Shown here piece after piece: positions 151-31,306 of a stretch of DNA of 64,000 nucleotides. The stretch covers positions 22,716,362 through 22,780,361 of the forward strand of contig NC_091142.1 in NCBI RefSeq assembly GCF_041381155.1, given 5' to 3'. Under the pieces are notes generated by a model. It saw only the letters and a list, made by a program, of their open reading frames with translations. It did not search any database and was not told where the DNA came from. A program made the position numbers and the translations under genes. Position 1 is the stretch's first letter, and every line of letters starts with the position of its first letter. This DNA comes from Argopecten irradians (taxonomy: Eukaryota; Mollusca; Bivalvia; Pectinida; Pectinidae).

Positions 151-1783
151 AGAAATAGCCGGCTATATGGTACATTAAAAACTGATAAATTATAATTTTT
201 GGATTCATTAACTGATGATATATTTCAATATTGATGTATGAAATAAGTTCTTAATAAAATATGCTTTACCTCAGTGACGTCACATTTTTGTTATTTCTTC
301 TCAGTGTGGAATGAATCAGTGGTTCTTCAGACTTGGACGGCCAGCGGGCCATGGTGATCTTTTGATTATACTTCTTCTCACTGATAAAATACAAATTAAT
401 AACATTCTAAAAGAATCACAAGAACCCCAGGATAGTTCACATACCATGCTTTATCAGCGAGTTATCTCCCCTCACCATGTACGCCACACGCTTGTCAGTT
501 ACATATGGAGAACGCCTTCTGGAAATGACTATAACTAGTGATGCTGCAGATTTGTTTAATGCCGTGATAAGGAATGTTCGCAATCTCCTCTTCTATACTC
601 ATTCGTAAATTGTGTATAATCTTGGTTTTGTTTATACATAATGACATTAATAACACAGATGTAAATAACACGCACTATAAGAACTAAACGTTGGTTTATC
701 ATTTTATATTGATAAATTGAAATACACGTAATGAAATATATGTTTTAATAGTCTATGCTTCGATTCATTGGTAAAATATTGTTAAAATGAAACATGTTTT
801 CGGAGAAAGATAATAAACAGATTAATCAAATACTTAAGAATCCATCTTTAACCTAGTTCAAATCAAACATCAAGTCTGATTGTCACAACATGTTTGGTAG
901 TTACATGCTCCCTCAATGACATTAAGGCTTAAGTCACACATATAATGATTTAAAATTCAACTTACTTGCACGGCGGTTTACAATTCGGGCAGTGGGTAGA
1001 TAACGATTTTCGGTAAAACTTCTTGCATTGGCCAACATAAAGAGATGTAAATCATCAAATTTACTTTGAATTACATACACATGCAACTGAAATTATTTAA
1101 TTCATTATCAACCTCAAAATCATTATGTGATGTAAAATCATCTAAAAATGTTCTTATCAATATTAGTTGTATCTTCATTCAATTTGGTACATCCAAATTA
1201 TTTGGAAGAAATCGTATCTTATGTGCCAAACTGCTATATTAGCAAAACTGGAAGAGGTTATGATTATTCTAAAACCTTAAATTGGATAAAACGGTTCATG
1301 TTATACACCTTTCAACATGTATCGTAAAGATGTATCGTCAAGTATAATGGAGGATATGGAAATATAACACTTAAGTGTCATGTAAATAATATTGAATATT
1401 TTGGCAAATTATAAGCACTGCCCTACTTTAATAGATGGAATTAAAATCAAGTTAATCAACAATATGATATAATAGTGTGAGTCAGTGTTATAAGAAGCTA
1501 CTTTTGGTAAACGTCAAATAACTGAACCGCTCGAATTTTGAAACAATTGTCATTTATGTTAAAAGCATATGTTTGGCGTTAGTGCAATACAACATACCTC
1601 GAGAAGCGTCACAATTTCCACTACTATCTTCATGTTTACAGTTGTTCTCAACCAGGACGGATAAACAATCCTCCAAACACGCCTAAACAAATAAAGATAA
1701 GTAATAGCATTGTTATTGACTACGCATAGATTATCTATTAATGGAAATCAAAGTTACATTTCAGTTATGTCTTCAAGGCAAAT

Positions 1784-2124
1784 AATTCAATTTTGCTTGT
1801 TACGAGCATTTTCATTGGCTTAAAATTTAATTTATCAGTCCATAAAGGACAAAATGGCGTCGCCGTTTGTAATATCGCATCTGATTGGGTGAGATGACAG
1901 CGCAATGATTTCATAGACAAAAGAGTGATGAATATTGAAGCTATTATCTTTAGTTTATTGAATTATAAGGATTAATTTACATAGGTTTTTTATGTTATGG
2001 ATATATAACACAATTATCTGAGTGTATTCTCATCGTAAACCGCTTTGTGGTATAGTAGAGTACATTGAAATTTTTGTGTTATATCTCCATTTCATAAGAA
2101 ATCTCTTCAAGTTAACCCTTAAAT
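1784..2124. repeat. Interspersed repeat R1, copy 1 (MITE-like)
   Basis: It begins AATTCAATTTTGCTTGTTAC and matches 4576-4843 through TTTCATTGGCTTAAA, ATTTCATAGACAAAAGAG and TATAAGGATTAATTT. The ends are weakly inverted (AAGGATTAATTT against AAGTTAACCCTT). It lies in an intron of DEG/ENaC copy 1. Confidence 0.65.
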
Positions 2125-3723
2125 AATATCAATAAAAAGTGAATAAAAAAATATAGTATTTCCAATATATTTCTATGTTGTTATGAGTCATGAGTTTATA
2201 TTTGAATATTCATTATTAGCAATAAAGTTGGACACTGTTTCGAACTATCACATCTGGCATTGTCTGTTCCTGGTTGTCTGTTATATTCTGTCGGCACAAA
2301 AAAAATAAGATACTCATAAATTTTGTACACTTAAATCTTATATATGTAATAGATATTTGCAAGATGATTTGGACTAGCATTTATCTTGATGTGCCTGACA
2401 CATACAAACTATAAATCATCGTCAAACGTCATAGAAGCTGACTTATATAATCAAGACATAGTGATATTGGTGAGTTTGCAATCATGATAGTCTGACTAAA
2501 TTGCTTTTACGATGCCAGTCAATTGTAACAATTATGATGAAATATTTATGCACATTTTGCTTTAATACCGGGTATTCCATTTTATCACATTTTTTTAGTT
2601 TCCAAAGACTCACGTACAAAACGCCACTTCCAAATTAAAATATGACGGTTCTTAAACGACCATTGCTATTTAGACGTTTGTAATAATATGAAAATAATAC
2701 ATTTAACCTATGATTAGTTTCTCGATTAAAACAAAAACCTCAACTTCAATGAATGTACATGTACTCTCAATGTAACTATTTCAGGTTTATTTACCAGTGT
2801 CAATCCGATATGAATGTCAAAGCCTGCCGATAGTTTGATATCGTCACTGCTCTCCTCCAAGAAGATATTCTGATTGTCGCTGGGATATATTCGCGTGTTA
2901 ATCCCAACAGCCTCCGCAATAAACGGCACGAACTCGCCATGTTCCAAAAAAGCGTCAACTCAATTCCTGAAAAACAAGTTTTTAAGTGTATATGACTGCA
3001 TTGATACAAATAAAGGCATATTACTGATTTTACATCCGAGGGTGTCAATCGTTAATTTCAAAACAATGCAGTAAGTCAGTGCTACAAACATGCTTAATGC
3101 ATGTATGATAACATGTGTTAATTAAAATTCTATCAAAATATAATAGTGTATATACACCTGACAGTAATTGTGATGTACTACCAGTGGCCTATAGAGAGTT
3201 GTCAAATTCATACAATCATTAACTTTATCTGAATACGCTTAAGTATACGTAATGTAGATGATTGTGAATGTGTTTAACATATCTTTCAAGGAACCGTCTT
3301 GAATATCTTTTATATTCATGTTTCGTATGATGTTTCAGGTCCTAATTATAGCCAGTGTCATTTAAAGTCATAATGGGGCAAAGAAGACGGAGACAATTTT
3401 GAATACCAAGAAAAAACCCACCGCCCTACGCACATACATTGTACCTGACAACCGGCCCACGTCAGATTCAAATTAAAAACCCAGTAGTGTATGGGAAGTG
3501 GAAATATATATTTGAGACCTTAACCTCCCAGAACAATAATATTCCTCTCACGAGGATACCTGTCGTTAACATCTTACCTTGGTCTTGCCCTGCTTGGTAA
3601 ACTCGAGCATTTTCAGATTTAACTTCGAAACAGTTGATGTTACATACAATTGATCCTGTTGGGTTATATACTGTAAACTAAAACAAATCACAAAAATTAA
3701 CTGTTATTTATAGACAACATTTT

Positions 3724-3993
3724 AAAGGAGGGGTATCACTTTGGGCTGTTTTACGGCCACTCAGTGATAAGCAAAATATTTTTTGCATGAAAATACATTA
3801 GGGTCAGCTGCATATTGTATACTATTCAGAATATCCGAATATTAGAATAGAGATAACATTTTTTTTGCAGTTTTGCCAGTGAATATTGGGTTTGTGAAGT
3901 TCAGTTCAGAAAAAAATGATGAAAAATTCAAAATATAGGTCACAGTGACCTAGTTAAGCAGCCCAAAACGGCCCAAAGTGATACCAATCCTTT
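3724..3993. mobile_element. MITE with GGTATCACTTTGGGC termini
   Basis: AAAGGAGGGGTATCACTTTG at the left and CAAAGTGATACCAATCCTTT at the right form imperfect TIRs of about 28 bp; the core GGTATCACTTTGGGC is exact on both sides. The element is 270 bp, non-coding, and lies between two exons of DEG/ENaC copy 1. Confidence 0.75.
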
Positions 3994-4257
3994 GTTTTCT
4001 TGATTTGTATATAAATTATGATTTTTGTATTAATAGTTTATGCATAACGTAACTTGCAGCATAAACACAATCATTATTTACCGTTTGCTTTTTTTATATA
4101 TACTTTTGGAATAATTCCTCATACTTTACTTCCGGTTTTTCGCAAACAATGAATTCATATATCAAATTAATGATATGATATTATGTATGTTTCAACTGAT
4201 CATGATTGAATTCAATTTTCGATTATGCATTATATTAATGAGCTGATATAGTGGTGT

Positions 4258-4281
4258 TTTTATATATATATATATATATAA
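4258..4281. repeat. (TA)n microsatellite beside a splice donor
   Basis: A TATATA run abuts the GTACGT donor of the CRFQGEDC exon in DEG/ENaC copy 1. Confidence 0.85.
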
Positions 4282-4512
4282 CGTACCCCATTCGCTGACA
4301 ATCTTCACCCTGAAACCTACATTTTAGTATCATATTGTCGATGGAGTGAGTAAGTGTACTATTATCCGTGCCCCCTTTCCCAGACATCACAGTTTGGAGA
4401 CTCGCTCCGAACACACTTCTGGCGCTCGATAGGTCACCTTGGAATGCCAAAAAGAAAACCAACTATTTATAGGTAGCGATAATGTCCAATATAAGACAAG
4501 AAAAAAAAGGTA

Positions 4513-5040
4513 AGTCGTACATACCTATTTGACAAAATATTTGATTGTATGGGACTTTTGACGTTATGACTATATAATTCAATTTTGCTTGTTACGAGCA
4601 TTTTCATTGGCTTAAACATTTACTTTATCAGTCCATAAAGGGAAAAATGCCGTCGACGTTTGTGACGTTGCTTCTGCTTGGCTGAGATGACTGCGTAATG
4701 ATTTCATAGACAAAAGAGTCCCAAAATGAATTTTGAGTATTGAAGAGATTATCTTAAGTAAATTGAAGTATAAGGATTAATTTGAATAATTGTTTTATGT
4801 TATGGAGATATAACATAAAAAAATATTCAAGTTAATCCTTAGATACGCGAAAGATAGAAGTATTTTTATTATGATGCTGTTTAATATGTAAGAATGCTTA
4901 CAGTATAGCATAAATGTTAAATAGGACTTTTAATTTCCTCAGTATAGCAAAATGTGCTACCCTTATCCCCTTCTGTTTAAGAAAAATACACCATTTTAGG
5001 CGTTTGTGCCATATTCAACGCATTAATGAACATGTACGAG
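4513..5040. repeat. Interspersed repeat R2, interrupted copy
   Basis: Left piece TATTTGACAAAATATTTGAT and right piece TGCTACCCTTATCCCCTTCT align to the continuous copy at 6670-6945 (TAGTTGACAAAATATTGGAT, TGCTACCCCTACCCCTTAAT). R1 copy 2 separates them. Confidence 0.5.
4576..4843. repeat. Interspersed repeat R1, copy 2 (nested in R2)
   Basis: Same family as 1784-2124 but lacking the middle of the right half. It is inserted into an older repeat (R2) whose uninterrupted relative is at 6670-6945. Confidence 0.65.
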
Positions 5041-6669
5041 AATTAAACTGTGTAAATTTTAACATTTTGAGATCCGATCGGCAATATCCTATTTTGATTT
5101 GTCAAAAAGGCGAAAATAATTCCCTGGTGATTTAATTTACAGTCAGATTATCTGATCTGTGCTTTCGATCTCTGAATAGGTGATCATCGCTCTCAAGTTG
5201 ACATAATATCTATCAGGCTTGTCCGCCTTAATTCGACCAAACAGAAATCAGCAAAACAATCACAATCATATACCAAAATGCTATTGCTTTAAAAATAACC
5301 TAACTATATCAGATCATTAGCATACAGTCACTATACAATGCCGAATGCTCTTGACAACAATATCAATCTATATCACACCGACACGTTAGTATAAATACTA
5401 GGTAAGAGAAATATGCAGTGTGGTTGGCAATAGAAATGAAACGCTAAACTCTTAAAATCGATCAAAATTAGCTCTTGCGCTTACTTATGGAGTATGCTTT
5501 AGACGCGTTCCTTACAGCATCTGATATCTGAAATGGTATAATAGGTTGCAAAAAAAAGTTAATAAATTTCAAATAAACTAAATCTTACGTTGATGTGTAT
5601 CAATATTTATTAGAAAAATAGTATCTGAAGAATGAAAAATATCAGTCTAAATTCAATTACAGTAATTATAAAGTACATTTTTATTAGATCTCAGGTAGGT
5701 CTATACAAAATCGCGCCGCTTCGCATTCTACGTAAAAGCTGCGTCGCTTATTTTGAACTCCGGAATAGTTACCTATTTGTTCAACAAATAAAAATTGTCT
5801 ATACATGATAACGAATGCCTTGAATTTTTATATAAATCATACAAAAAAATGAAGTGAAAGTTAGATGATGTATATCTTATGTTTCTGAATGGATTTCAAA
5901 AATCGACAGTAACGTTTGTCACAGGACAAGTAAAGAACTTCTGAAAGGAATCTCCAATATTCCTAACATTACATAATTTTCTTGTTTTGGCGAGCAATCC
6001 CCACAGATGGTATATTTTAAACGCAAATATCTGAAAATATAAAACCAAGCTTATTTTCATTAGAAATTTATGAAACATCTACACACAAAATGCACGACGA
6101 AAACAAGTATAATAAAATGACATGGATTTTCCCAATCGTATGGAGCTACCTTATACATTTAAGTGCTACCTACAATGGTGGGTTTGCCAGGAGGGTCGAA
6201 TTCCGACAGACTGACTCCAACTTTGTTTTGTACAGCAAATAGAATGACCATTAATTCAGTGGTTGATTTTACGGCTGAATACGGAGCTGGGTTTAGATTG
6301 CAGAATCGAATGACGGGGAAAGCTGTTCATTGCGTACTTCCAAAGACGTTGTCATGAGACCTCTGAAAATGAGACAAAGAATACAAAAAAGAACACGAAA
6401 ATGAACAAGTAAAAAAAAAAAACGAAAACAAACATTTTTAGCGTCAGTTTGTTTGGGTTTTTTTTGCGAATTGTTATCAGCTGGAAATACGCGAAATTTA
6501 TTCGCACAAAAATATTAAGGATGTACTCCTCTGAGAAGGCAAAATTTTCTTGTATTAAACTTTTTTTTCTCATATAGATTTTTGGAAATAGGAGTTCATA
6601 CCATAAAAGAAAATGGAAGAAAAACATATGTCCGTTTGCTCGTTTTTGAGCTATTGTCACTCAAAGATA

Positions 6670-6945
6670 CCTAGTTGACAAAATATTGGATTTTACGGGA
6701 ATTTTGCCGTTTTGACCATATTCACACGAGATTAAAGCCACAATTTGTTAATGAGATGTTTGATATTTATGGATGTTTGTAGAATTCATTTTCCAGAAGT
6801 CTTCTTTAAAAATATACCAGTTTTGATTAATAAGACTTATATTTTTTTCTCAGAATGACGACATATGCTACCCCTACCCCTTAATTTTGAGCTACAAAAT
6901 TCACCATTTTCAGTCATTTTTGCCAGATTTAACCATGTATAGGGA
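6670..6945. repeat. Interspersed repeat R2, uninterrupted copy
   Basis: Diverged relative of 4513-5040 without the R1 insertion. It lies in intron 1 of DEG/ENaC copy 1. Classification unknown. Confidence 0.5.
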
Positions 6946-8524
6946 AAGTTTTGATATTAAATTTTTTGTTAATATTTTTCATATCAACAGGGATAGGGTT
7001 GTTCTTTCAAAATCAGACAGAATAATGGGGGGTCCGTGTGCTTACTTTTTTGTCCTATTTGAATATTTGTTACTTTTCAGTGTTTAGAGTAAAAAATTAA
7101 AGTGCTCAATTTACCATTCAATGTAAAAATAAAGTGACAAAAGCGTATCAGGTCACACATTAATGCTCAATATTTTAATTACCACGAACCCAGTAAAGAT
7201 TTACAGCAAAATTAGCTCGAAACAACTAAAAAAACTGACGCAGTGGTGATTTGAGTAAAAACAATTTCAGTAAAAAATGGTAAAACTTGGGCTCACCTCA
7301 AAGCGAAAAAAGACAAATGGGCCATTTCTTAAAATCCCTGTCTAAAAAAATCTACTAAAAATAGAAATGTAATTTTTGACAAAATTTGCAACTGGTACCT
7401 TGCTACAGATTTTATTTGAAAATATCATAAGTTCTTTGATCTATGTCGAAACGAGACTTCAAGGGAATTGAAACCTCAGAGGAATACATGTACATCCTTA
7501 AGTTAAATTGCAATAGACTAGTTGTTGGCGTTGGTTGGTCATTCCGTGTATCCAGGAATTTTTTTGAGGGTATAATTTTGCAGTACAATTATATGATCAC
7601 AGAAATATTATATATTTCATTTTTTTTTCGCCCAAAGTCATATCAATAGATTTTAAATTTGTCAAATTTTATTCTCTGAATATAATCTTTATTTAGAAAT
7701 ACACTGTTTTAATAATCTGTTTATCAACGTAAATAACAATGAACAAACTTTCTGATTTTTTCCCCATTTTATATTTTGATCACTCAGTTTAATTCTATTC
7801 TACCAATATAAAGAACGAAGGCTGGCGTAGTATCTACATTCAAGAACATCAATAATAATACAGTTCTTAAAAACCTTCAAACACAAAGAACAAGAAATTG
7901 TTATGTATCATTCGCATTGTTACTGTGTTTTTTTACACTGTGTCACATCCAAAGAAGTGGTAATATCTACAATTGTTCCCTGTTGTCTATATTTTCTTTA
8001 CTTGTATTTTTTCACATTACTCTGGAAAGGCAACAAACAAAACATAGAAGCATTAAAGAGTCAACATTTGAAGTATTTGAATCCGGCAAAACTGATATCT
8101 TATGTTTCCAAAACACAGCCAAAAGCTGCGTTTAGGACAGTACCCGAGCTATGATATCTTCTTACCCTTCGATTATCCCTGAATATAAAAGCCATTTTTT
8201 TTATATTTTGAAATGAATGTTTTGTAATTTTGATAGACCGTCGTCACGTGAACATGTGCACAATACTTTACATCAAATTACTCTCTTCCGTTTTCATCAC
8301 TATGGTATTTTTCACGTATATATACCGTGTACATCGGCGCGACTGAGTGTTTTTGAGTTTGTATACGCACGTGTGTGACCCTGATAGTGACATACTTCCG
8401 GCATATGTACATGTGTACATCGTTTCCCTTTCTGACATGAGAATTACACAGAAGATATGTTACTTGTATTTTATTTTATTCTTTTTGTTTTGTTTTTTGT
8501 GTTGTTTCGAATTCATATGCAGTC

Positions 8525-9075
8525 ATGGGTGTTATTAAAGCAGGGGTTCCTCAGGGTTCAGTACTTGGTCCTTTACTGTTTTTTTTTTATTTATATAAAC
8601 GATGTTTTTGACTATCTAAGTTCAGCTTTTTTGTCTTTTTGCTGACGATACATCACTTATGAGAGTATCGTCTTCTTGTATCGATGGAGAAACTACCTTT
8701 AACCATGACTTGGAATCGTTAAATACTTGATGTAAAATGTGGCTGGTAAATTTAAATCATGGCAAAACAGATTTTTTTTTCAAGTTCAAATGAGCTTGAC
8801 GGGATTCTGGAATTGAAGTAATTGTCATAGACATCTGGGGGCTACGTTCAATCCCAAAGGAAAATGGGTGACCATATAGAAAATTTAAAATATCTGTTTT
8901 GAAAAAGGTTAACGCTCTCCGAAAATCGAAATACTTGCTGAAACGAGATACACTGTTAAACATTCATAAAGCTTTCACTCTACCAGTATTGAAATATGCT
9001 TGTAAACTATGGGGTGGTTGCAGTGTGTTTGAATCCAATTTGTTAGAAAAAGCCCAATGGGCCATCTTCAGCATT
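8525..9075 (+). mobile_element. Non-LTR retrotransposon (LINE) reverse-transcriptase fragment, CR1/Jockey-like
   Basis: The plus strand reads VIKAGVPQGSVLGPLLF, INDVF, then ADDTSLMRV (the A-D-D catalytic motif), a WLVNLNHGKT block, and after frame changes the thumb region NALRKSKYLLKRDTLLNIHK followed by FTLPVLKYACKLWGG. This is the palm-to-thumb part of a LINE reverse transcriptase, truncated at both ends and broken by several stops and shifts. It sits antisense in intron 1 of DEG/ENaC copy 1. The clade is tentative. Confidence 0.82.
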
Positions 9076-9458
9076 CCAAATCACTATACATGAAATAAAA
9101 GTTACATATAAAGCGCCATCTGAAATTGTTAGCAATAATTGATATGGAAATAATCATCTCTAAAATATGTTTATATATAGTGTAAGATGTTACATGGCAA
9201 TATAAATATAAATATATGTAATAAATACATGTACAACATACAATACTCACGCGGTGTACTGACGATACAGAGTGTAAATCTGGTAACTAGTTATCCCGAT
9301 GCTGCCCAAAGTTGCAAAACACCAGAAAAGTTTCAGCATAACATATTTGGAATCTCCTAGCCGACCACACTCGTGTATGGTAGTGTAGCCGGCAAAATCT
9401 TTTATTGCCTCACTCACCATCATGTCCAGGTTTGATACGAATTCAAAAGCAATGTGAG

Positions 9459-12400
9459 CTGTTAGGAAGTATAATCCAAGATTGAGGTTGAAATTTCAGG
9501 TATATTGTTAACATTAACTTTACTTTACACTTAATCCAGCTCAAGTTTAAATTACAGTATGATTTCGTGTTACACTATTGTTTCATGTCACCAGTTCAAC
9601 TGTTTTTCACCTTCTGTCCGAGTCAATTGGATATCGACTACTGCAATGGATGCCTGTCTACGAAGATATCGATAAATCATTAAAATTTCTGAATAATGAA
9701 TATCTCATGAAAATAAGTTTTTGATGGATTCTAAGGCAAACTTTGACATGGGACATTTGCAATTGCCTGGTTCAATGGGCTAGCGCATACAATTGTGTTG
9801 TTGTATTTCCAATCAAGTGGAACGGAATATATTACGAAAAAGGAAAAAAGTTTGGTTTTCTTGTTTTGGTGTGCATTTCGAGGAATAGACATTTGTAAAA
9901 AGTGGTTAATACATGTGTAAGGAGCTAAATACTCCTAAACTTTTTATTGATGGCACTGCATTTCCTCTTGTATGAAATATGTTTTTAAGAACTGCTGTGA
10001 AAACCAGCAGACAGCATGCCTCTTTTCAAAATTTCTCCCGAAATTAATGATTTTTGGGATCAATCCCAAAATGTATATGGGTGTTTCTGCCAAAACCATT
10101 TTCGGGATCGATGCAAAAAATGTTTTCAGGGTCCAAATGTATTGCTGACAAAATGATTTTTGGGGATAATTGGAAAGTACAAGAATGAAAGGAATAGTAT
10201 CGAGAAGTTCAAGCACACAGAAATGCTTAATAGATTAGAAAGGAATGTGTCAAATAAAAAAGCACAACAAAACAAAAACAACAATTGCAAAAATGAATTT
10301 TCCTCGGGTATATAGAAATATTCAATTCCTCTGATTAGAGACGGTAAGCGTAAAATCCCCGGGAACGTAAAACTGTTTTGTTGGTGTTAAAATGACTATA
10401 CGCTATACATGTTTCTACCGCAATACGTCGTGTTATTCCACTCTCAGGCCATTATATATTTGTGTTGTGTGTTGGATAAACACTATTTTTTTCATTGTCA
10501 CGTCATTCAATATTGATAATTGTCTTTTGTTTAGTAGTATTATTTGCCATACGAGAACCCTGGGGTGGTCTCAGTAGAATCAATCCACCTAGACCGGACT
10601 TGAACTTGGTTACAATTGTTTAATGATAATTTAGGGGGAGGTATAAATATGTCCGAAGGTTCAAAGACCTATTGCAATCTAGATTAAAAAGACGTTCGGT
10701 GAATAGGTATGCATGGATTAGTTGTTAATAATTAAAATGATTTGTTATTTATACATTGTTTAAGCAATTTAAATATTTGAATAATAATTCATTTGTTTAT
10801 GGTGATATACCTATGCCTTATTAGCATACAATTTGTATGTCCGCAAAAAATAATATCTTATTTTGGCCTTCTTGTAGGTGATATCATTGTGGTAGAAACA
10901 GATTACACAACTTATTGGACTTGGAATTTGTTTCACACTCATAAGATATTTTTTAAAAGCTCGTGTAATTTGTTATTTAAAAATAAATAACTCACTCCTA
11001 TGAAATAAGTTCCATATCCAACAACCACTCGTTGTGTAACCACTAAATATATGACAGACTGGTGGTATATTTATCAATCATGGATCTAACTGAAGTCAAT
11101 GTGTTGTTATACTGCCCTAGTAGACTGCTTTGCAATATCGACTGAAGTGTGACATCAGAACAGGAATGCTGTCTCAGTGTTTCTATAAAAGGAAATTCCA
11201 AGTCAATATGCTTAATATATATATATCGCCCTGCACGCGACAATGTATTAGCCATTGGTAATAATGGATAATCCGAGCATATCTAATATAATATAATGAT
11301 GAATGTCATTTTCACAAACAAAAATTGCATGTTTACGGTTAAGTAAGATGCATTCAAGCCAACGCCACATGTCAAATAATCAAATAGATCTTTGCTTTAA
11401 ATTTGGTCACCATCCATAAGAAAGACAATCGATGTTAATACTGTTAAGTTCACCGTCAATTTGTCCATCTTAAGTAATACAGGACATTATTTTAATGGTT
11501 CCTCTACATACCATCTGTGTAATGTATTAAATGTCTTCAGGTGTACGAGTATCGATTTACACTTAATTGGTAGTAAATTTATGATTCGTCGTATGATTCG
11601 TGATTGTTCACACTGTAATTATTCCTTGATATATCGATTGTATGGTAAGACATCAAATAAACCCATAATTATTGTTTTATTTTAGTCTCTTATCAGTTAT
11701 CGTGATCAAAATTAAGACAACATTCTGAAAAAAAATATTTCTCATAATGTAACACATTTTTGTAAGCAATTATAATTGTTTGATTATCAAATACACTTTA
11801 ACATTTTTAAACACTCTTGTGTATAATATATATGAATATTTTTTTAATTTTCCTTATGGTTCTAGTGCTTCACCTTGCTATGCACACTTCATTCCATATA
11901 GATAGTTTGTAACTTTGAAGATGCTTATCCAAAGGAGTTTTATTACAATAGCTGATAACATTTCAATAGAGATCAATGATTGACACAGACTTTCTGACAG
12001 CCATGCTATATTTCGATAGTTTACACATTTAAATGAATCCAAGAATACGGATTCCGTTGGTGTCAATAACTAACATGCCATTCGATCATGGTTTTGTGTC
12101 CCACCGTGGCCAGTGATTGTTTATATATCCCGTTGATGTTTGTGTTGCTTCGTCAAATAATTTTGATCTAAATCTTTATATTTTATGAATTCCTTATAGT
12201 AAAACCAAGAATCAATGATTATTTAATGATTCATCATCAGGTATAGCCAATACGCCGCCTGTGAGCGTAGATAAATTGGCTACGGCTGAGCGACAAACAA
12301 ATCGTGTAGATATAAAAAAACCCATAATTTTAGTATTCTTTGAACCTTGTGTCCAAAAATTCATTTTTGTCAATATCAAATTATATCAAATGAGAGTATT

Positions 12401-15400: not shown

Positions 15401-16647
15401 AGCTACCAAAATTATGAAAATTAAAATAAAACAAGTACAATTCATATCTTTTACAAAAAAACTAAACATGATTTTGGTCAAATCATTACAATTATATCTA
15501 CAGTGGAGCGAAGTGAATACATACGGTCAGGCCATGATGCCAATGTATTGTTTACAATTTCATTTTAATCTTTTTACAGTGTGTTATAAGTAATTCATAT
15601 GGAAGAAATAAAACAAAATGTTCGCCCGGTTATGTGACATATAATTTTATTATTAGTTTTAAAATGTACAACATGAACATAGACTTTTAAATCTTATTTC
15701 TACACTGATTTTAAATAGGTTAGCATTCTATTAACTACTTATAATACATAATTGCATAGCGGGATATCTGATACATTATGATGTATGCATTTATTGAAAA
15801 ACACCATAACATCACTTTCCCAAGAAGCGATAAAATATTTAAATATGTTGTCCATACACACTCTCTTAATTGAAACAATGAACTATATACATAACGAGAT
15901 CCTCTATCTACTTGCCAGCGCAATGCTACATCGACTTCACATACAGTTTATTACGTTTACCTGATATACATGTATATGTCCAGTCAACCGATTATGCTAT
16001 TACACCTATCATGGAGACAATATATAGGACAGTGACAATCGAAACATACACACAAGGGGTTAAACTATCTAAAAGGCAAATGCATAATATGTATTCTTAA
16101 ATTCTTAAAAAAACATATTCAGTTCATAAAGGCAAACGGTAATCGCCATGATTAGAACGGCTATATCATTAGATGTAAATAATTATGTGAAGAAGACGAT
16201 TTAGAAAGAATTTAGGAATATATATCAAAATATAAATACCATCACCAGATGCCTGTACAGATGAAAATACGTCTGGATATTCTTTGTACTTCAGCATGTA
16301 CTCCTTCATTAATATTAGACGAAAAGTTCCTGTTTATCAAATATGAGCTTGTTCCAACAAAATCAATTCGTCATCATCTACCTTTTTGTAATTATGAAAT
16401 AAAACTACTGTCATTGATTTATTTTGGAGGTAAATAAATATCGCATTGTCATGTTTAGAATTTAAGGAATAGGTTTTACTGCTAAAAATGTGTTTTAAAT
16501 GCACTTGATAACACCAATTCAGAAAATGACATGGTTTATGACCATAGTTTGATGTGTGTTTACTGTGTGTTAATAACGCGATAGTCGCACAATGTATCGT
16601 TATTTGATATTAAACTTTAGCCAGTGACACGGCCGAACCTTGCTGGT
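9459..16647. other. Interval between the two DEG/ENaC copies; no supported gene
   Basis: AT-rich with short runs of A or T. The region near 10030-10130 has small self-complementary words such as TTTTGGGATCAATCCCAAAA. A minus-strand open frame of 87 codons at 13547-13810 has no splice support or recognisable domain. This interval should hold the promoter of copy 1 if it was ever independently expressed. Confidence 0.5.
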
Positions 16648-17170
16648 TTAACGTGACAGGAACGACTGGTGTTGTTTCCCTTTTCCGTTTTTCACATAAT
16701 CTAACATGAGGATGCCTAGCTCGACTATTTCCCCCAGAGTTAGTACCGACATGCCAATCCAAAGTCCAAGCTGACCTCCAATGTCACTGACAAAACTTTC
16801 CTCCTGTCAAAGAAAAATGAATGAAAAAACGTGAAAGCCTTACGTTTCGTGAACAACTGATAAACAGGTTCTTACTTGGTCATACTATCATTCTGGTAGT
16901 GAAGAAACATGTTATGTTTTACAATTTATGGTCCCGGTCACAATTTCATAAAAACTTGAGGCGACTGGTTATTACATATATGCGCACATGGAGAATAGGC
17001 GTATGAAGATCATGCAGAGTGTTTGACCGAGCAAAGAGTCCGACCTTTTCATCTACTAATAGCCAAAATAAGACGGCCTCCCTTTATATTGCATACGAGC
17101 TAAAGAGAGTTCTTTCATAATGATACTTACGGTTGAAACAATGTTAAACAAGATTAATCAGGAAATAATT

Positions 17171-17289
17171 TTAACCATAATGCTGTTTGAGAGGCCACTA
17201 TTGCCTCATAGTATTGTCAAGGGATGAAACAGTCACGAGACAATACAATGAGGCAATAGTGCCCTCTTAAACAGGCCATAATGGGTTAA
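17171..17289. repeat. Long imperfect hairpin / MITE-like inverted repeat
   Basis: Arms 17171-17218 and 17239-17289 are inverted copies (GAGAGGCCACTATTGCCTCA against TGAGGCAATAGTGCCCTCTT) with a 20-nt centre. It lies in the last intron region of DEG/ENaC copy 2. Confidence 0.75.
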
Positions 17290-17642
17290 GTACATCACCC
17301 TCAGATGGGACTTGTTTTTATGTCATCGTAACAGAAGCACGTCAAAGTGACACCTCGCAATGCTATCTTCATTTCCAAACCATATTATTACGTTAAAAGT
17401 ACAACATATGAATTGCCGCGGAAATCTGTGTTTCTATAAAACGGGATTCAGCTTCTTGAAGATTAAAAGTATATCAATATAGAGCATGAGTGAACTTTCT
17501 TCTGTAGAACAGCAACATTTGCTTCCATCCCCGCACACAACAGCCTGTCCGCCATCTTGACGTCTTGGTCGAAGCGCAACGTAATAATGACGTCATGTAA
17601 TGGTGACGTCACAATACATTCACGTTCAATTTCGCGCCACTT

Positions 17643-17672
17643 CAATAGTGCCCGCTTGCCCGGGCACTATTG
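17643..17672. repeat. Perfect 12-bp inverted repeat
   Basis: CAATAGTGCCCG, six bases, CGGGCACTATTG. It shares the CACTATTG core with the hairpin 350 bp to the left and may be a related element end. Confidence 0.7.
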
Positions 17673-19149
17673 CAAATAGTAGCCATGTGTGTAGCCAATC
17701 CGAATCCAGTAGTCTGTCGCGTGATGTACTAATGATGGATATTGGATAGTCTGCGTGCTAACGTTGTAGTTATAGCAGTTATAGCATTACAATTTGTTTT
17801 TGTGTCTAAACATGTGTAGCTTACACCAAAACAAAAAGAAGGCATGTGTTATTCGTTTCATGTTTAAGCTACAATCGTCAATTACACAAGACGAAATATT
17901 TCGAATTTTCTATCTACAAAAAAGAAGGTGGCAAGCTGAGTTTGTGTCACATGACCATTTACGTGGATACTAACCGTGTATGCCACCTCTTCATTATATG
18001 TCTGTATGGTGAGTGTTGAGAAATGAACATTCACCATCATTACATTATCACTGAAACACAATTTCATATATCGTTTAAAGAAAACAAATCGATAAAAATG
18101 AATTGAAAGTATCGAACGATTTTACACAATTCGTTAAGATTCATCTCTGGTGAGAAATCGAAATTCAACCCAGACTAACTTTTTCTAAAATATACCTTTG
18201 GTAATAGGAGTTCGAAGTATGGTTCAAAAAGGAAGAATAATGATATATTGTTGAGCTGGATTTTGGATTGCGCTCTGAATAGTAGCAAAGGTTACTCATA
18301 CCCCCTAAATTTTGGAAACACTATTTTTTTTCCTTTTTTGTTTACAAATATTTAATATTTTACAACTATAACAAGTATAATATTGGCAAAAACAATAAGT
18401 CAGACTTGTGTTCTTGATTTTCGCTTAGTTCAAGTTCAGCATTTCTTGTGACAAAACAGCAAACAAAACATATTAATAATAAAAAAAAATGAAAAATTTT
18501 AAACATCAGTTAAATGTTAAACAAAAAAACAACAGGTTATAATGTCACATTTAAATGCTCGGTATAGATTTAGAGTGAATGTTATACAGATACACAGCAT
18601 CGATGCATTGAATATAGCTAAAATACCGTCAAACTAGTGATTTAATTTGTAAGTTAAAAGTTAAAAGAAAAACAAAGACAAATCGTAGATACGGTTCACA
18701 AGCCGGCCAAAAAGTCAAAACAAATTTTGACCTTTTGTGGCAAGCAAAGTATTTGATTAACGACAATGGGATAAAACATTGCAATACTCTTAACGATAAT
18801 TTAGTATTTTTCTGTTTAAAGTTTATGGGTGACATATTGGATAAATGGAGTTTACCTCAGTGTTGTGGTTGGTATCATTAAGCATTTTGTGGATCATGGG
18901 TACTGTGGACCGTGATGGCCAGCGGGTCATTGTAATCCTCTGTTCATATACCTTCTCACTGGTAAAATATCATACAAAATAAACAAAACCATTACCAAGT
19001 CTAAGGATATCAGCATGTTTAAATCAAATCCATTGGTGTTAATAACGATATAAGTTCTAAGTTATATGACAATGTTAATATTAATGAAGACTGATCTTTA
19101 TTCAATTATTCAATTTATGAATTTACTGAAAAGGAATATCAAAGGAATG

Positions 19150-19484: not shown

Positions 19485-20509
19485 GATATAACAAATTGAA
19501 AAATTGCAGACATAACTTGATTTGTTAGCCAAACATAGATATGATGAGGAATATTTAATACACTATGTAGGATTTTGTTTCCTAACCAATCATTGAACAA
19601 ATTTGCACTGGATCCTCATAATATCTATTTTTTAAGTATTCCAACTTGTTTTCTTTGAATACAGAGGTTAAATCATTATAATACTAAATGCGATACAGGA
19701 CAAATGCGTAACGTCATGCACATAAAAAATTATAAAGAACAAATAACAACTTAAGAACCCCTTTTTACATACGTAAAAACTAACAATTTTTACCCCGGTG
19801 GACAAGAACCACAACACCAGACCGTATTAAACTTACTGGCATGGTTGTTTACATTCAGGACATCTTGAATGAATAGATTCCCGTAAACGCATCTTACATT
19901 CGAAATCTACAAAATACAGAGTCATACATACATTGGCCTTTAATCAAATTTTAGGGCGCGCCATACATTGGCTTTAAGCAAATGATAGGTGGCACTATAC
20001 TGTACGCGGCGGTATAATCTCGCAAATCATGCCTAACGAAAAGTTGATGATAAATTACACCGATAAAGATATATCGAACTTGTAATTGAAACATATTTAA
20101 CGTGGACCTGTTCACCGAAGAGAAAAGTATTCAACAAGGTATCAGCTGTGTGCCATCACAAATAGGAGATTCTAAGTTTTGAATTACAACTCAAATGATA
20201 AGTTCATGAGTAATAATAGAAAGCTCATACCATCAGACGGCGTGCATTCCTCGTCGTTTTGATGACTTGTACACTCGGTAATGAGGAGTAAAGCCAGGCA
20301 CTGATCATGACACGCCTGTAACGAAATAAGTGGAAGGATCAAATAAATGAATAAATTTGATAGCCGCACGTGGATTATTGTTGTGTTTAATGTTTAAATA
20401 AAAGAAGATCACTATTTTGCAACTAAATGCAGTGTTCAGTGGTCGAATTGACCAATCTGCCCGATTTCACACACGGACACTATTGAAGATGGTTTTAGTT
20501 TTTGTACTA

Positions 20510-20846
20510 GAATGCTTATTTTAATGTTTAATGTTTTAATGTTTTATGTCCTCAGCTTGTATAGACATCTGTTGTCTGAAACTTGCCTTTTTATAACACC
20601 CGTGATACTTTTTCTCTTAGATGGTATAGTTTTTTACACTCGTAGTCATGCATATGTCTAGTTTTTATCTCTGCTTACTGCTTAGTGTTTATTATTTGTG
20701 TTTTAAATGTTTTGCATGCTGTGCTTTACCTTCCTTATGTTTTCCTTTCTACTCTTGTTAGATAGTCGGTTGTAAAAGCCCACATGGGCTTGTGTTGTCG
20801 TGTTTTAACTATGTACCGACTTTAAATAAGATTGACTTGACTTGTA
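20510..20846 (+). mobile_element. Probable LINE 3'-end fragment with TTGAC-type tail
   Basis: A T-rich non-coding stretch ends with AAAGCCCACATGGGCTTGTG (a small hairpin) and TAAATAAGATTGACTTGACT. Short tandem TTGAC repeats after such a segment are typical of CR1/L2-like 3' ends. No coding part is attached and the left edge is approximate. Confidence 0.45.
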
Positions 20847-21163
20847 GATGTTCATGTTTCTCACGTGATCACGTGACCGCCGAGAACGACCCCATTAGCA
20901 CTTCATCAGTAAATACGCCCGCAGTACCCAGTTATCGTATTTATTTCCTGATGCACATACATCTTATGTACTTGTTCACTATACGTGATTATTATAGAAA
21001 TGTGCGTATCAAACTTTTTATAAGAAGTTTATACTGCTTAAATTGATTAAAAGATGCATGTTCTGGAAAATGTACACCAATTTCCGTGATTTCATTTTTA
21101 CACTTATATTTGTTTCTTTAATATTGGGTTTGAGTAACAGGTGATTTTACAGAGCATATATGT

Positions 21164-22881
21164 CTTTTTTTAATTTATTTTTTATTCATTTTCAAAAGTT
21201 TTGTACATACAAATACAATACAACATATATGAAAGATGTATGTTGGAGTTAATTAATTTAAAACAAAAGTAGTCATGTATACTCATAATATACATCAATC
21301 AATGGACAACACATTTACACTAACAAACTCACTGATAATTTATAGAGGATAAGTTCACAAACTGTTAAGTATCAGAGAGATGCAGGACACACATACATAC
21401 ATACAAGGTACCTCTGTCGAACCTAGGTCAAATATTTATTTTACAAGTTTTTATTGGTTTTTGTATATGTTTTTAATGTTTTAAAATTTAAAATTGGAGC
21501 TAAAGTTGTATTTCTGTTAAGACCTGTTGTTTATTTTTTAAGTTACTATTGGTTTTTAAAATTTTATGAGCTTTCAGTTCAAATTTGATGTGGTTTTTTA
21601 AACCAATTAGGCAAAGATCTGCTTCAAGACATTTACAGTTATTAATATATTGTTTGGTTAAAAGTAACATTAAGTTGTCTAAATTAAAATGTGAATGTTT
21701 ATTGTTAACTTTCTTGCCAAATATAAATTCTTGTTTACTGAATCTAAGTCCTAGATTTTTTGTAATAATTGTTATTCTCAGTTGTTCTATCAGATTTGAT
21801 GTTTTATCACAGTCCCATAGTATGTGTGTTATGGTTTCGGGAGAAGTTTAACAAAATATACATATGTTATTTTCCGCATTACCTATTCTTAGTAAAAATG
21901 TCTTAGTAGTCAGGATTCTATGATTTATTCTATATTGTAGCCACTGAAGTTTTGAACTTGTACATGTGTTAAAAGGGTGTTTATAAATCTTTTCCCAATC
22001 TTCTTCATTTATATTAAAAGTTTGATTCCATTTATTTTGAGCTGTAGGTTTAACTTGGTTTTGAATTAAAATATTATATATGTATTGAGCTCCTTTTTTA
22101 GAATTTAGAATAATTTTGAGATTTATAGGTATATTGGGTAATATTACATTCTTTTCTGTGTCGTAATTTTGATCATTGTTTCTAACAAAATGTTGAATGG
22201 CATTTTTCAAGCTTTGGTATTTTAAAAAGTTAGTCCGAATATTATATTTATCACAGAATTCTTCAAAATTGAGAAATGATTTATCTGGTTTTGTAATGTT
22301 ATAAATAAAAAGAACTCCCTTTTAATACCATGCATTATTAAAAATTTCTTTTCTATCTATTTTGATGTAATTATTAAACCATATTGGGTTTTCAAGAATG
22401 TTTGTTTTATATATTTCACTTAAATTCAGAGTTTTACACCAGGCATTTAAAACATCTCGCCAAAAACTATTAGTACAATTATTAGCTTTTTGTTTTAAAT
22501 GTTCAATTCCTGTATTTGCCAATTTATGTTTGTCTAATAAAGTTTTTAAAATGATGTCCCAATTTCCAGCCTTAGTATAGATTCTTCGTATCCAAGTTGC
22601 TTTAAGAGCCATTATAAACGACTTCAGATGTTTCATTTTTTGACCCCCTTCTTCATAACGTTTGATGATTATGTCCCTTTTCACTTGATCAGGTTTACAT
22701 TCCTCAAAAAGTCGTAACAAATATTGTTGATTACATTTATATATCGATCGTCTGGATTGGGAAGTGAGATAAATAAATGGTTAAACTGTGATATAAGTAA
22801 AGATTTAATAACAACTATCTTACCTATTGGTGTAAGGATTCTTTTTTTTTTCCAGGCTGAAATCAATGATTTGAGTTTTAC
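21164..22881 (-). mobile_element. 5'-truncated LINE insertion (L1/Tx1-like RT C-terminus), with target-site duplication
   Basis: The minus strand encodes the region after the RT core: SLISAWKKKRILTPIGKIVV, FNHLFISLPNPDD, then EGGQKMKHLKSFIMALKATW, WRDVLNAW, and a terminal zinc-knuckle-like block (LRIGNAENNICIFC, then SPETITHILWDCD). The latter is the zf-RVT type found at the end of L1/Tx1-like ORF2. One in-frame TAA separates IFC from TSPET, and another break lies near 22.3 kb. The 3' end is on the left with a T-rich tract (poly-A tail). A perfect 15-bp repeat, ACAGAGCATATATGT, flanks it at 21149-21163 and 22882-22896, so this is a single truncated insertion into an intron of DEG/ENaC copy 2. 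Confidence 0.88.
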
Positions 22882-25835
22882 ACAGAGCATATATGTTAAT
22901 ACTCGTGTCTCGATAGTGAAACTCTTCACCTTTTTGGTATATGAGTAGTAAAACAGAACAATGAACATATAATAGGAATACTGCTTTCGCGTAATATCTT
23001 TAATTGTCGGACTTTTGGATGTTAATCTTATGATTCTGTCAATTAAAACGTATGAGAGACAACATAAATAACCATCTTCGTGTCAAAAACCGTTAACAAT
23101 CTGACGTCGACAGCATTGTGAATTTTTGTTGCAGAATAGAAATGTATGTAAGTGACAAAATCGCCTTTGAACATATAATTTATTTAGTATGAACACTGAT
23201 TCACAGGTGACTCATTCCTTACATATTTAACAAAAATCATGCAATGAAAAAAATGTGTAATAATGATGACAAATGAGTATTAAAAGCAATCTCTGAGAAT
23301 AACAAAAAGCTAACGTTGAGACTTGGATACTCCATTGAACTGTCACATCTACTATTATCCGTGCCTGGTTGTCTATTGTGTTCTGTCTGCAGAATAATAA
23401 AAAAAACTACATAAAAATACTTATTAACTTTCACTGGCATGTCATTTTGTCAAACTAAGGTTCTTGTAGAAACCTGCAATGTTCGTAAATCTCTACAATA
23501 ACGAATGCAATGATGTAATACATACACCCCTGAAATGATTTCGAGTTACGGTCACATTGATAGTGAGATGGGGTTTAAGATTCAAATACAGCTCGAATAT
23601 CTAGATTGATGTACTGAATCCAAACTAGTTGGAATATCACCGCGTTCATCATATACAAAGATACTATAAATATCTATATTTCAGTCCATTGAAATTCTGA
23701 TACCAAGAAACTAAAGTCTCACGTACATGCGATCATTCATTTGGTTATAGGATATTTTGGACCTATTTGAGTTTGAAATAAAAAAATCTTAGAGACATAT
23801 CTTCCACCCTTTTGTTTACTGCGTGTCATTGTATAACGTACGTATGTTATCGGATATGCAAAAACCTGTAAAATATCACCGCCGATATATATATTTTGTA
23901 GTTCATTATCGGAATACAATTTTAATAAAATTCAATGGTTTACACGAATAAGGGCTTCAAAGACAGCGAAAAACGTGCTAGAATAAAACTACCGCTAAAG
24001 TGAGTACATCTACAGTACATTATCAATTTAATATCTAAAATAAAAAAATAAAAATAAAATACTCATTATAATCTGACTCTTTCATACAGAGAGGACGTAA
24101 ACCGCAACCTTTGCTAGAGAAAACCTAAATAAAGTGAATATGGAACTTTATTTTTTTTAATTTAAAGGTTTTTAAAAAGTGTTATTACCAATGTCAAGCC
24201 GACGTGAGTATCAAATCCCGTAGACAATTGGACACCGGCTGTGCTCTCATCAAACACACGGTCACTTCTATAGTCTTCATGGATCCACATACTGATGCCA
24301 ATCGCTTCCGCAATGAATGGTATGAATTCTGCATGGTCCAGATACAGCATTAATTTCAACCCTATATGTAACAATGGAATACTGGTCTAGTTTGAAATTA
24401 CTAAAATGTAGAATTGAACTTTGTTAGCTCGTATTTGTATATTCACTAAAAGACACTGTTTAAGTTTAAGTTTCTGTGTTCTCCCTTGCTATATTCAAGC
24501 CAAATACTCGTATTCCGTCTTTCCATATCATAGAGTTATCACTTTCCGTTACCCTCTGAAACACATGACGTCACAATCAATACCTACCCGCAAGGGGAGA
24601 CAAATCGGTAAAATACAAATAATCGTATATCTAAATGTGATTTCCTGCTTATCATCAAGGTTACGGGATTTTTACTTTAAATTATTCAAGACATCTGTTA
24701 AAATGAACGTTTGTTAGCTTTTGAAAATTGCATATGAAGTTTTTATCAAGCACTACATTTTTAATTCTAGATATCCAATAGGCAATTACTATATTTTTAT
24801 AATGCATACATTTATGAAGATTAATGGGTTTTTTCAACTTATGTACATGTCAATATTTTAAATTCACATTCATTAAATTGGTGTAAAAGGAAACAGTATA
24901 GGAATTAATATATTTGAAACAAAAACTACATTAAATATGAAATAAGTTAACTAAAGTTTTCAAGCAAAATATTAATTAAGTCTTCTTCATCAGTGTATCT
25001 TTGGTCTAAATATGTGTGTAGAAGCACACATACACTAAATATTTGTACATCAGATTTATCATGAACAATCCAATTGCTAATTTGTTAAATAATAACCATA
25101 TCGGAGTTGTCTCCCTCATGTTCAGTACATTGCACCTTCGAATTTTGTCGGGATTCCGAATCGTATCGCGTGACTGACGTCGACACGACCTGCACGTGGT
25201 GAGCCAGGTGACTAGCGTAGGCGAACATGTGTTTTTCATGTTTTTTAATCATGCTTGTATATGTCCACGGAGTGAGTATTTGAAACATCTTAATCATACC
25301 TTGCCGTAAAATTATATGCGTATTACAAATATTGTAATGTGAGAGTATTATTTTCTTTGTAGATCCAGTCTGCTTAGGTCGTCCACATGTTTTGTTCATG
25401 AAAAATTGTTGCCATTTTCTCTTGGTTTCACAACTCTCGTGTTACTTCGAGGTTGTCGCGATGATATTCGGAATAATTCGGCATCTTTCAAGTCTATTTT
25501 TTACAAGTACGCGTTTAAAAGATTTTTTGTTACTTTTATAATTATAATTATATATATAAGATATTTCCAGTGCTGCAACTTTATAAAAAGTGGTGAAATT
25601 ATAAAGTTTATACCTCAGACAGACGGAAAAAAATGTATATAACACATTAAGTGTTCACTACGTCAAAAAGAGAGAAAGTTGTAGACCACACCACTTTGAT
25701 ATAATTGTTTGGAAAGACTAAACTTACCATGGTCAGGTTCAGCTGTATACACCGGGATATCCTTAGATACAACAGCAAAGCAAGTGCCGTATAACGCAGC
25801 CGTATAACGCATCCTGCTGTTTGATAAACGACACA

Positions 25836-28049: not shown

Positions 28050-28831
28050 TTTATCGCACCTCGGACAGAAATGTCCCCAAATGATTGGCAGAGAGCCGTC
28101 ACGTGGTGACCCCCTATCACTTTATAGGGGGTCAGTAAATTTTATTATGGTGCAATATGGCGACTCTCGCCCTCGCTTCAAAATTTAAACACACTATCTT
28201 CAACTAAATATAATGGTTAATTTTTGTGTAAAAATAACTTTAATCGTTTTAATACTTCAAATTACATGAAATACATTTTTTAAATACGAGTTGCTTCCCC
28301 TACGCCAGTTTGAAAGTTGATGACGCGGCGAAAGTCAAACGTAACAATTCAAGCGTTTTCTAGACTGTGATTATAAACAAATGAAGGTGTTCGTACCTAC
28401 AGATCAATTTTCACTCTAAAATCAATTTATCGGCATAACTTTTAAGTGATTAACTCGGCGAAAATGCACAGATGATCAAGGAGATTGTGCTTAAAATGTT
28501 AGATGGATGTTTGTGTCACTCTTGTTTGTGATGCTTTCAATATACAGACGGTCTGGTGTCGTATTGAGGTAGGCCTACTGAAGGAATGTCGAAATTATTG
28601 TTGATTTATGAATTATTCATTATTTTTCTGCAGGTTCCTTATACAGTATATTTGAAAATTCTTGAAAGAAATACACAAATAAATATGTAGCCTAGGCCAA
28701 CTATTTTAAAAGTGGCGATTGTTTGTTATCATTTGCGCCAGTATGATTTAAGTTTGTTTCCAGATTCTTGACCAAACAAATAGGAAACAAAGAATTAATG
28801 AATCAAATAAATGGTCCTCAGTGCGATAAAT
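28050..28831. mobile_element. Candidate TIR element beside the 140-bp palindrome
   Basis: TTTTATCGCACCTCGGAC at 28050 and GTCCTCAGTGCGATAAAT at 28814 are imperfect inverted termini. Inside the left end is a hairpin (GACCCCCTAT, six bases, ATAGGGGGTC at 28108-28133) whose sequence recurs in the palindrome at the right end. No transposase seen. Confidence 0.45.
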
Positions 28832-28833
28832 TC

Positions 28834-28973
28834 GTTATATAGTCAGTTACTGACCCCCTATAAAGGCATAGAGGGTCAGTAAGAAGTATAGGAGACTCGG
28901 GCTACGCCCTCGCCCCTATAAATCTTACTGACCCTCTATGCCTTTATAGGGGGTCAGTAACTGATTATATAAC
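28834..28973. repeat. 140-bp near-perfect palindrome (cruciform-capable)
   Basis: Arms 28834-28884 and 28923-28973 are 51 bp each with one mismatch (GTTATATAGTCAGTTACTGA at the left end). The 38-bp centre also partly pairs (TATAGG with CCTATA). It is non-coding. Confidence 0.9.
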
Positions 28974-28998
28974 TAATAATAAAGATCCGTTTCAGTAG

Positions 28999-29342
28999 AA
29001 GATGCTCCACCGCTGACAGAGCACAAACGATACCCGTCATTTCAACAGAATCTGACGTATAATTGTTTATACGTGTTTAAGTAACATACATTTCCAAATA
29101 AAAAAATGCTTTTGGTGTATGTTCAATCAGTACTTAATTCCAAATAGGGCATCGTGTGATGGATTTTTTTCGGGATGTAATTAATTTATTTTAATATTTT
29201 TATCTTGAATCAAAAAAGGAATAAGCTCAAACCTTTCAACACTGGCAATTGTGTAAAGTAGGTAACTTTTGTAACTGAAGAAAACTACCAATTTGTCTGC
29301 TGATGTTTTGATAAAGAAAAAATGGCGTTGGCGCGTCTTTAA
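28999..29342. mobile_element. TTAA-targeted MITE, copy B
   Basis: Left TIR AGATGCTCCACCGCTGACAG, right end GGCGTTGGCGCGTCTTTAA. The internal segment TGCTTTTGGTGTATGTTCAA is shared with the other two copies. It sits next to the 140-bp palindrome at 28834-28973 in an intron of DEG/ENaC copy 2. Confidence 0.75.
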
Positions 29343-30928
29343 CATTTTGGTGATGAAATTGAAAGTAAACAAAAATCATCATTATAATATACATTTGTAT
29401 TTATTCTGATACCAGAACACTCACCGATAGGGTATTGTGATGATTTGTTTTTCACTTCATCTGATATTTGAAATATAAATTCCAAATCAATCAAAACGAC
29501 TTAATCAAACACATGATGAACTAGCAAAATTAGGTTTTATTTCAATTATTCTGTAGAACAATGCTTTTGGAGTCATTGATTGTTACTGGAGGTTAAACAA
29601 TATAGTATATACTCACTTCTATGATGTCTCCTGGATTGTCAAATTCCGACAGATTTGTTATTCAAATTTTTGTTGTGTTGCATACAGAATAGCCATTAAT
29701 TCTGTTCAGTTTTTCACGGCTGAGTACGGAGCAGGGTTTAGACTGCAGAAACGAAACATAGGAAAAGTAATATTCCTTGATTCGACCTCCAAAGCTGTTG
29801 TCAGATGTTTCCTGAAAATAGACATCCAAATGAGAGTAATTTTATATCTATTAAATTCAAAACATTTTATTCTGCCTTATACAATTTCAAAAAACCGGAT
29901 TTTGGGACTTGTTTGCCATTTTATATGGGCGTTTCACCCATGGCTGAATAAACCTACTAGTTTTGGTTCTGTTCTATTGTTATTATCATTCTGCATCCAA
30001 AGTTGTATACAAAGTATCAATATAAATGGTAAGGTATATGCCGCGAATGTGTCACCATATCGTGGTACATAAATTGAAGGTGTGACAGCAGCACTTGTTT
30101 ATTCACAAATCCAATATGGCCTCACTTCCGGTTTTAAAGTTATATCCATATCTCGGCTGGACGAATTTTGTTTTTGACTGTTCTTATGTTATGTAGAGTC
30201 AAAACCAGAATAACAACCAACATGACACTTTCTGCAAAATGTCAATTTTCAGTTGGAAATGAAGGTAAACGTTCAAGCATTTTTTCGAAAACAAATCACT
30301 TAAAACATAAGTCTAATGTTCTGAAAGGCGTAGAGGCATGTTATTGGGTAAGAAACATGCTGAGATAAATGAGTAGCAAGTTTATTAATATGAATAACAT
30401 TGACCTACAATTTTGACCTATTAAGCATGCGTCCAAGATACGCTTTTCAAGAATTTTCGTGAGCCTTTTACAAAGGTAAATAAGGGGACCGCAATGCCCC
30501 CTGGGAGAGATTGGTTATTTTAATGATATCGGAACCCGCATAGTATCGACTTTTTCTTGGCTGACGGTAAAGGTATGTATCGTACATATCTGTGTTCTTA
30601 ATTTTTAGTATTTCCATGTCTGTTTCATGATAATAATAATAAACGTTAAACTCCAGTATTGTTGTAGAATATAAGACTCTTTCATGTGTGTATATGAATG
30701 ATAGGGGTATTCTACCCGAGGGTCACAAAATGTTGTAAAACTCTGAGGCTTGCCGACGACCTCGACGTTTAAATGGAATTTTACCGCTATGACTTTCCGC
30801 CGTTTTGAAACAAATTCGAAAAAACCGGGACGTTGTTTGTTTCTGTTTAAGAAATCCAGCCTAGTTTCTTAAAAAAAATGTTACATTGTACCTTGAAAGT
30901 AGTAACTTTTTTGAAGCTGTGACGTCAT

Positions 30929-30965
30929 GAGGCTTTATTGCATATATAGTCATGCAATATAGCCT
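30929..30965. repeat. Short hairpin
   Basis: GAGGCTTTATTGCAT pairs with ATGCAATATAGCCTC across a short AT-rich loop. Confidence 0.6.
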
Positions 30966-31306
30966 CAAGTAACATGAGTGTATTGCCTTAGACTAGCAAC
31001 TATTACACGTGTAGGTATGAGAGAAAATGACATATTAACATAACTTATATATGCATGTACCACCAACTAACATTAAGGAAATGATCGTTAATATATACAC
31101 AAGAAATGTAAGCTACATATACGAGGTAATTATATGTATAAAGAAACATAACTACTTGCGCACTGTATTGCTCGTACAGCCTGTAAATCTGGTAAGTTGT
31201 CATTCCAATGCTGGCCAAAGTTGCAAAACACCAGAAAAGTCTCTGTATAATATACTTGGATGGCGGTGTAGCCGTAAAATGCTTTTAATGCCTCCTTCAC
31301 CACCAT

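Follow-up and report, generated by a model that had tools for sequence, protein, structure and literature searches.

Two probably dead members of a DEG/ENaC channel gene array in Argopecten irradians

What has become of two DEG/ENaC channel gene copies that lie adjacent and head to tail on the minus strand of Argopecten irradians contig NC_091142.1, and where did they come from? They occupy a 64,000-nucleotide stretch (hereafter the window; C9:22716362-22780361 of an 845.8-Mb assembly in 1508 contigs), which an initial annotation made from the letters alone read as a tandem pair, both apparently dead and inactivated separately, perhaps recently. The analysis presented here leads us to regard them, with high confidence, as two dead members of an array of at least six DEG/ENaC-derived copies under birth and death. 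Coordinates are those of the window, with negative values lying to its left, and the chromosome was also examined from 22616001 up to the window.

The array and its gene plan

A whole-genome search with PF00858, the DEG/ENaC family, produced 79 matches at the exon level (93 of 115 candidates scored); several fall immediately left of the window and one within it. The cluster was also located by a whole-genome search with the protein of copy C (90 of 102 candidates scored). Open frames across the cluster region were compared pairwise in six frames; exons from different copies match at E values down to 1e-25, with D-E exon pairs reaching about 60 bits, a similarity beyond chance. Gene models, obtained with a custom spliced protein-to-DNA aligner permitting frameshifts, stops and introns, yield the copies Z, A and B on the plus strand and C, D and E on the minus strand (Table 1), D and E being the two copies described initially. 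About 130 kb hold the copies as well as what are probably a conversion tract and a haplotype difference (see below). The extent first proposed, 270..31306, is exact for the copies in the window, since it runs from the end of D exon 9 to the start codon of E, but it misses two D exons farther to the left and four other copies. We found no published account of this DEG/ENaC array in the open literature searched.

Copies B and C set out the gene plan. Each has 11 exons whose junctions all show the canonical AG acceptor and GT donor, intron phases 2, 1, 2, 1, 0, 0, 1, 2, 2, 0, and an open frame of 457 (B) or 473 (C) amino acids, the start codon being assumed to be the exon 1 ATG common to A-E. Both match the full PF00858 profile (positions 1-455 of 455, cut-off 23.6) with 218 bits (E 3e-64) and 219.9 bits (E 9e-65), respectively; D and E match it exon by exon only. 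The HG motif, which is defining for DEG/ENaC and precedes the first transmembrane segment (TM1), is present as TTIHG in B and C, altered in D and gone from E. The G-x-S of the second transmembrane segment (TM2) filter reads GMS in A, B, C, D and E. The ratio of nonsynonymous to synonymous rates (omega) between B and C is 0.28 (confidence interval 0.20-0.38). B and C share the full-length profile match, the HG motif and the GMS with DEG/ENaC channels; they probably encode channel subunits, and we infer that they are expressed as channels; unlike such channels, D and E have lost their reading frame.

Lesions of D and E

Scored against C, copy D shows three frameshifts, three lost splice sites and one in-frame deletion of 15 bp in the TM2 of exon 11, outside the window. 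Copy E, scored against B, shows five frameshifts, one stop and one exon that was not found. The latter is exon 3, for which the best match between E exons 2 and 4 has an E value of 0.45, the same three queries giving 2.6e-9 or better in A, B, C and D. We did not count as lesions a deletion of 2 bp that D carries past C's stop, differences of 3 and 6 bp that preserve the frame, or, close to the exon 11 end, a 5-bp difference at which A and E agree against B. Spliced at the homologous sites, D runs into a stop after 80 amino acids and E after 98, so both copies look dead, as initially judged, and no protein would be expected from either. With introns kept and disabling lesions relative to an intact paralogue (D versus C, E versus B), they fit the description of putative unprocessed (duplicated) pseudogenes.

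The exon count given at the outset, nine and ten exons with eight pairs, is exact (D 1-9; E 1, 2 and 4-11; common 1, 2 and 4-9), and the peptides quoted are real: QPGTDNARCDSS lies in D exon 6 and CPNCKPPC in D exon 8, and their counterparts QPGTDNSRCDSS and CPECKQPC occur in E. In the alignments compared, in which exon 3 has no E row and A has no exon 2, no D lesion is present in C or E and no E lesion in A, B or D. The lesions of D and E are thus all different, and therefore the two were inactivated separately, in agreement with the earlier proposal.

It is improbable that D and E are still used, be it as short TM1-bearing proteins of 80 and 98 amino acids, as regulatory RNA, or by exon skipping around the lesions. 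D exon 6, which has lost both splice sites, is 72 nt long and lies between phase-0 introns, so that skipping it would preserve the frame, and the nonsynonymous share of both copies is still below neutral; but three D exons (2, 4 and 5) and five E exons (1, 2, 4, 9 and 11) still carry frameshifts, and the time before loss also accounts for the low share. That the lesions are assembly or consensus errors in two intact genes is very improbable. The loss of a single base from the T-run in D exon 5 is the sort of difference at which long-read assemblies can err, but the others include deletions of 26, 15, 8 and 4 bp, a perfect 13-bp duplication, a stop, substitutions at splice sites and the exon not found, and B and C, which lie on the same stretch of the chromosome, are without any lesion.

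Relationships and sequence exchange

Synonymous divergence (dS), computed for ten pairs from 317 to 448 codons per pair, is 0.16 for C-D, 0.37 for A-B, 0.55 for B-E, 0.60 for A-E, 1.02 for B-C and 1.12 for D-E. The FastTree topology from 455 codon columns is ((C,D) 1.0, (A,B) 0.995, E), and the DNA of C and D aligns with 77% identity over 1.0 kb across exons 4 and 5 and the intervening intron. D arose late, as a duplicate of C, and E represents an older branch that belongs to the A/B side; given the dS of D with C as against that with E, and the full support for C+D, the two are not closest relatives despite their adjacency. The initial version, in which D and E are twins of one tandem duplication, both lost later, has in its favour that they are neighbours, head to tail, with eight exons in common, but the C-D distance, grouping and intron-spanning alignment make it hardly credible.

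Concerning exchange between copies, positions 16735-16815 of E are 97.5% identical to D, the remainder being mostly A/B-like. Among the sites that separate A/B from C/D and at which E agrees with one of the two groups, E exon 11 is C/D-like at 9 of 9 in its left part and A/B-like at 20 of 26 in its right part (Fisher p = 7e-5). A tree of the left half (24 codons) groups E with D, and that of the right half (20 codons) has splits identical to those of the full tree. These mosaic sites and half trees are most simply explained by a gene-conversion tract: sequence from the C/D lineage probably replaced the first half of E exon 11.

Selection and timing of loss

Changes were counted by parsimony, for the C-D split with B as outgroup and for E versus B with C and D as outgroups. 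The D lineage has 23 synonymous and 39 nonsynonymous changes (C lineage: 8 and 17), and the E lineage 37 and 61 (B lineage: 39 and 45). The nonsynonymous share is below neutral in D (39/62; p = 0.004, 0.02 and 0.05 for kappa 1, 2 and 3), also without exon 11 (p = 0.009, 0.04 and 0.08), and in E (61/98; p = 0.0003, 0.003 and 0.01); therefore each evolved under constraint for some of its separate history, which gives modest support to the suggestion that loss may be recent. Since their split D has accumulated 62 changes against 25 in C (p = 9e-5), and E outside exon 11 has 94 against 60 in B (p = 0.008). As a proof of death, dN/dS was rejected: the calculation for each copy, proposed initially, fails to set D and E apart from A, B or C.

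Several points weigh against the account given so far. With exon 11 included, the E and B totals are alike (98 versus 84, p = 0.34), and the excess of D over C is also seen at synonymous sites (23 versus 8), where relaxed selection does not explain it; the C-lineage counts are moreover small. Omega values at kappa 2 (D 0.56 versus C 0.71; E 0.55 versus B 0.38 with exon 11, and 0.53 versus 0.53 without it) show no relaxed constraint. The support for A+B apart from E drops to 0.77 without exons 1 and 11, and the split point of the mosaic test was picked by eye. Finally, the dead status of D and E is a reading of their sequence.

Haplotype variation

An unplaced contig, C491, carries two further copies, one Z-like and one A-like. 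They are probably alleles of Z and A, and C491 would then be the other haplotype. Judged from it, the evidence suggests that losses in the array may still segregate and that the loss in the neighbouring copy A, which has no exon 2, may vary between individuals. Concerning D and E, four DNA queries (window 2150-4500, 28980-31400, 16590-18100 and 4900-9500) and protein C found only the C9 copy. For the last three of the DNA queries all listed non-self matches lay in repeats (40 of 6582, 848 and 3006 candidates scored, respectively), even the sister C being absent there, so a distant second copy of D or E could escape. We consider it possible, although doubtful, that the array is a dispensable, segregating channel set in which broken and working alleles, including those of D or E, coexist and conversion moves sequence between copies.

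Comparable situations exist in other bivalve families. PMC7653742 describes duplicated genes with presence-absence variation, some of them dead or missing, and PMC8925068 reportedly treats oyster aquaporins as a tandem family under birth and death. The present array resembles these in its duplicated genes, some dead or missing, with a probable haplotype-specific loss here; the gene families there are others, and the mussel variation is shown in many individuals, as against one assembly here.

Subfamily

Among PDB entries C matches ASIC1 best (113 bits, E 1e-31), followed by ENaC alpha (101) and FaNaC1 (81). This is not diagnostic, because L001, a FaNaC-like gene elsewhere in the genome with 644 bits to an FMRFamide-gated channel, reaches up to 133 bits to ASIC1. 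According to PMC9949801, H73, D78, K211, E411 and E416 (rat ASIC1a) are fairly conserved in ASICs, and two molluscs, Crassostrea gigas and Acanthopleura granulata, have no reported ASIC. Although ASIC1/ASIC2 are its best solved relatives, C keeps none of the five residues, showing M, a gap, Q, T and Q at these places in the alignment to ASIC1 chain 6ave. The one-residue offset of that alignment to the rat numbering is our assumption, which agrees with counting along the alignment. Read ungapped by eye, B, E and the C491 form of A have a His at the H73 place, and B keeps at most one of the five. The idea of an ASIC relic was rejected on these residues and on the higher ASIC1 score of the FaNaC-like gene. 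An ASIC-related cluster would bear on the mollusc ASIC loss published in PMC9949801, but the residue test speaks against such a relation.

As a side observation, L001 (C12:27718119-27719645, minus strand) is a single open frame of 664 codons, intronless across its PF00858 match (3-455), versus the 11 exons of the array genes.

Surroundings of the array

Between B and C, at the strand switch of the array, lies an inverted repeat (-26262..-24013 and -21517..-19269; chromosome 22690099-22697092) whose arms of 2.25 kb stand 2.5 kb apart and differ by 4 mismatches and 1 gap (99.8% identity). Two related genes flank C-E in opposite orientation, at 41705-45808 (plus) and -37830..-33957 (minus), which gives the locus a mirror-like appearance. 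For three pieces of the former there is a match to choice-of-anchor I (PF22494) that stays under the curated cut-off, and inside their span a 32-bp unit is repeated 18.6 times in tandem (44413-44999); the latter is known solely by its similarity to these pieces. Positions 61307-61603 and 62083-62379 form a foldback-like inverted repeat, with arms of 297 nt that show 92% complementarity and are separated by 479 nt. An open frame at 33674-34033 (minus) has a Cys pattern, CGSNGQVYPNE, that we take to be Kazal-domain-like, with no Pfam match at E 0.01. An Rfam scan of the window at the gathering threshold gave 0 matches.

Within the introns of D and E, repeated elements at 3720-3960, 6515-7488, 17170-17737 and 28999-29323 each have more than 30 related places in the genome, mostly at 76 to 95% identity (40 candidates scored each). 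Concerning the larger broken element in E (Table 1), the piece 21848-22321 has at least 151 genome matches including itself (150 of 2178 candidates scored), three pieces of the element have no Pfam match, and the label retroelement is our presumption.

Table 1. Array copies, exons of D and E, and the broken repeated element within E.
Feature	Position	Strand	Remarks
Copy Z	about -98.1k to -86.8k	+	
Copy A	-80.5k to -65.8k	+	
Copy B	-57.8k to -43.0k	+	
Copy C	-4.6k to -16.8k	-	
Copy D	9.4k to -1.5k	-	copy 1 of the initial annotation
Copy E	31.3k to 16.6k	-	copy 2 of the initial annotation
D exon 1	9251..9423	-	start codon, TM1; conserved HG reads HE
D exon 2	6170..6362	-	frameshifting 4-bp deletion at 6321
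D exon 3	4287..4437	-	frame intact
D exon 4	3578..3677	-	net 5-bp insertion near 3642
D exon 5	2795..2966	-	1-bp deletion within T-run at 2952
D exon 6	2220..2291	-	acceptor AG to CG, donor GT to CT; both splice sites lost
D exon 7	1598..1682	-	boundaries intact
D exon 8	966..1035	-	acceptor AG to TG, lost
D exon 9	270..380	-	boundaries intact; 270 is the exon end
D exon 10	chromosome 22715859-22715934		left of window
D exon 11	chromosome from 22715118 down		left of window
E exon 1	31160..31306	-	start codon at 31306; 26-bp deletion takes out HG motif; GC donor
E exon 2	29613..29811	-	in-frame TGA at 29708, 2-bp insertion at 29659
E exon 4	25728..25835	-	perfect 13-bp tandem duplication, 25786-25811
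E exon 5	24189..24361	-	frame intact
E exon 6	23315..23386	-	frame intact
E exon 7	20231..20315	-	frame intact
E exon 8	19837..19906	-	frame intact
E exon 9	18856..18958	-	8-bp deletion at 18868
E exon 10	17975..18050	-	frame intact
E exon 11 (TM2)	16596..16803, end approximate	-	4-bp deletion at 16706
Broken repeated element between E exons 6 and 7	21500..23082	-	extent from open-frame list; probable retroelement frames

Discussion

A decaying tandem channel array is of a well-known kind, ordinary gene birth and death. In the history we propose, an 11-exon channel gene would have been duplicated several times, giving Z, A and B on one strand and C, D and E on the other. D, arising late from C, and E, branching earlier on the A/B side, would have been constrained for part of their life and would then have lost function separately, each by several small insertions or deletions together with splice-site or stop mutations, the copies probably also exchanging sequence.

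The locus offers a well-preserved case of channel-gene turnover, in which sister genes that look intact sit beside dead copies, and both a conversion tract and a difference between haplotypes are probable. Annotators should be cautious here, as D and E are not to be called genes, and the lesion sites are usable to measure population variation in this channel family. If the array does segregate as a dispensable set, individuals would differ in the channel subunits that they make.

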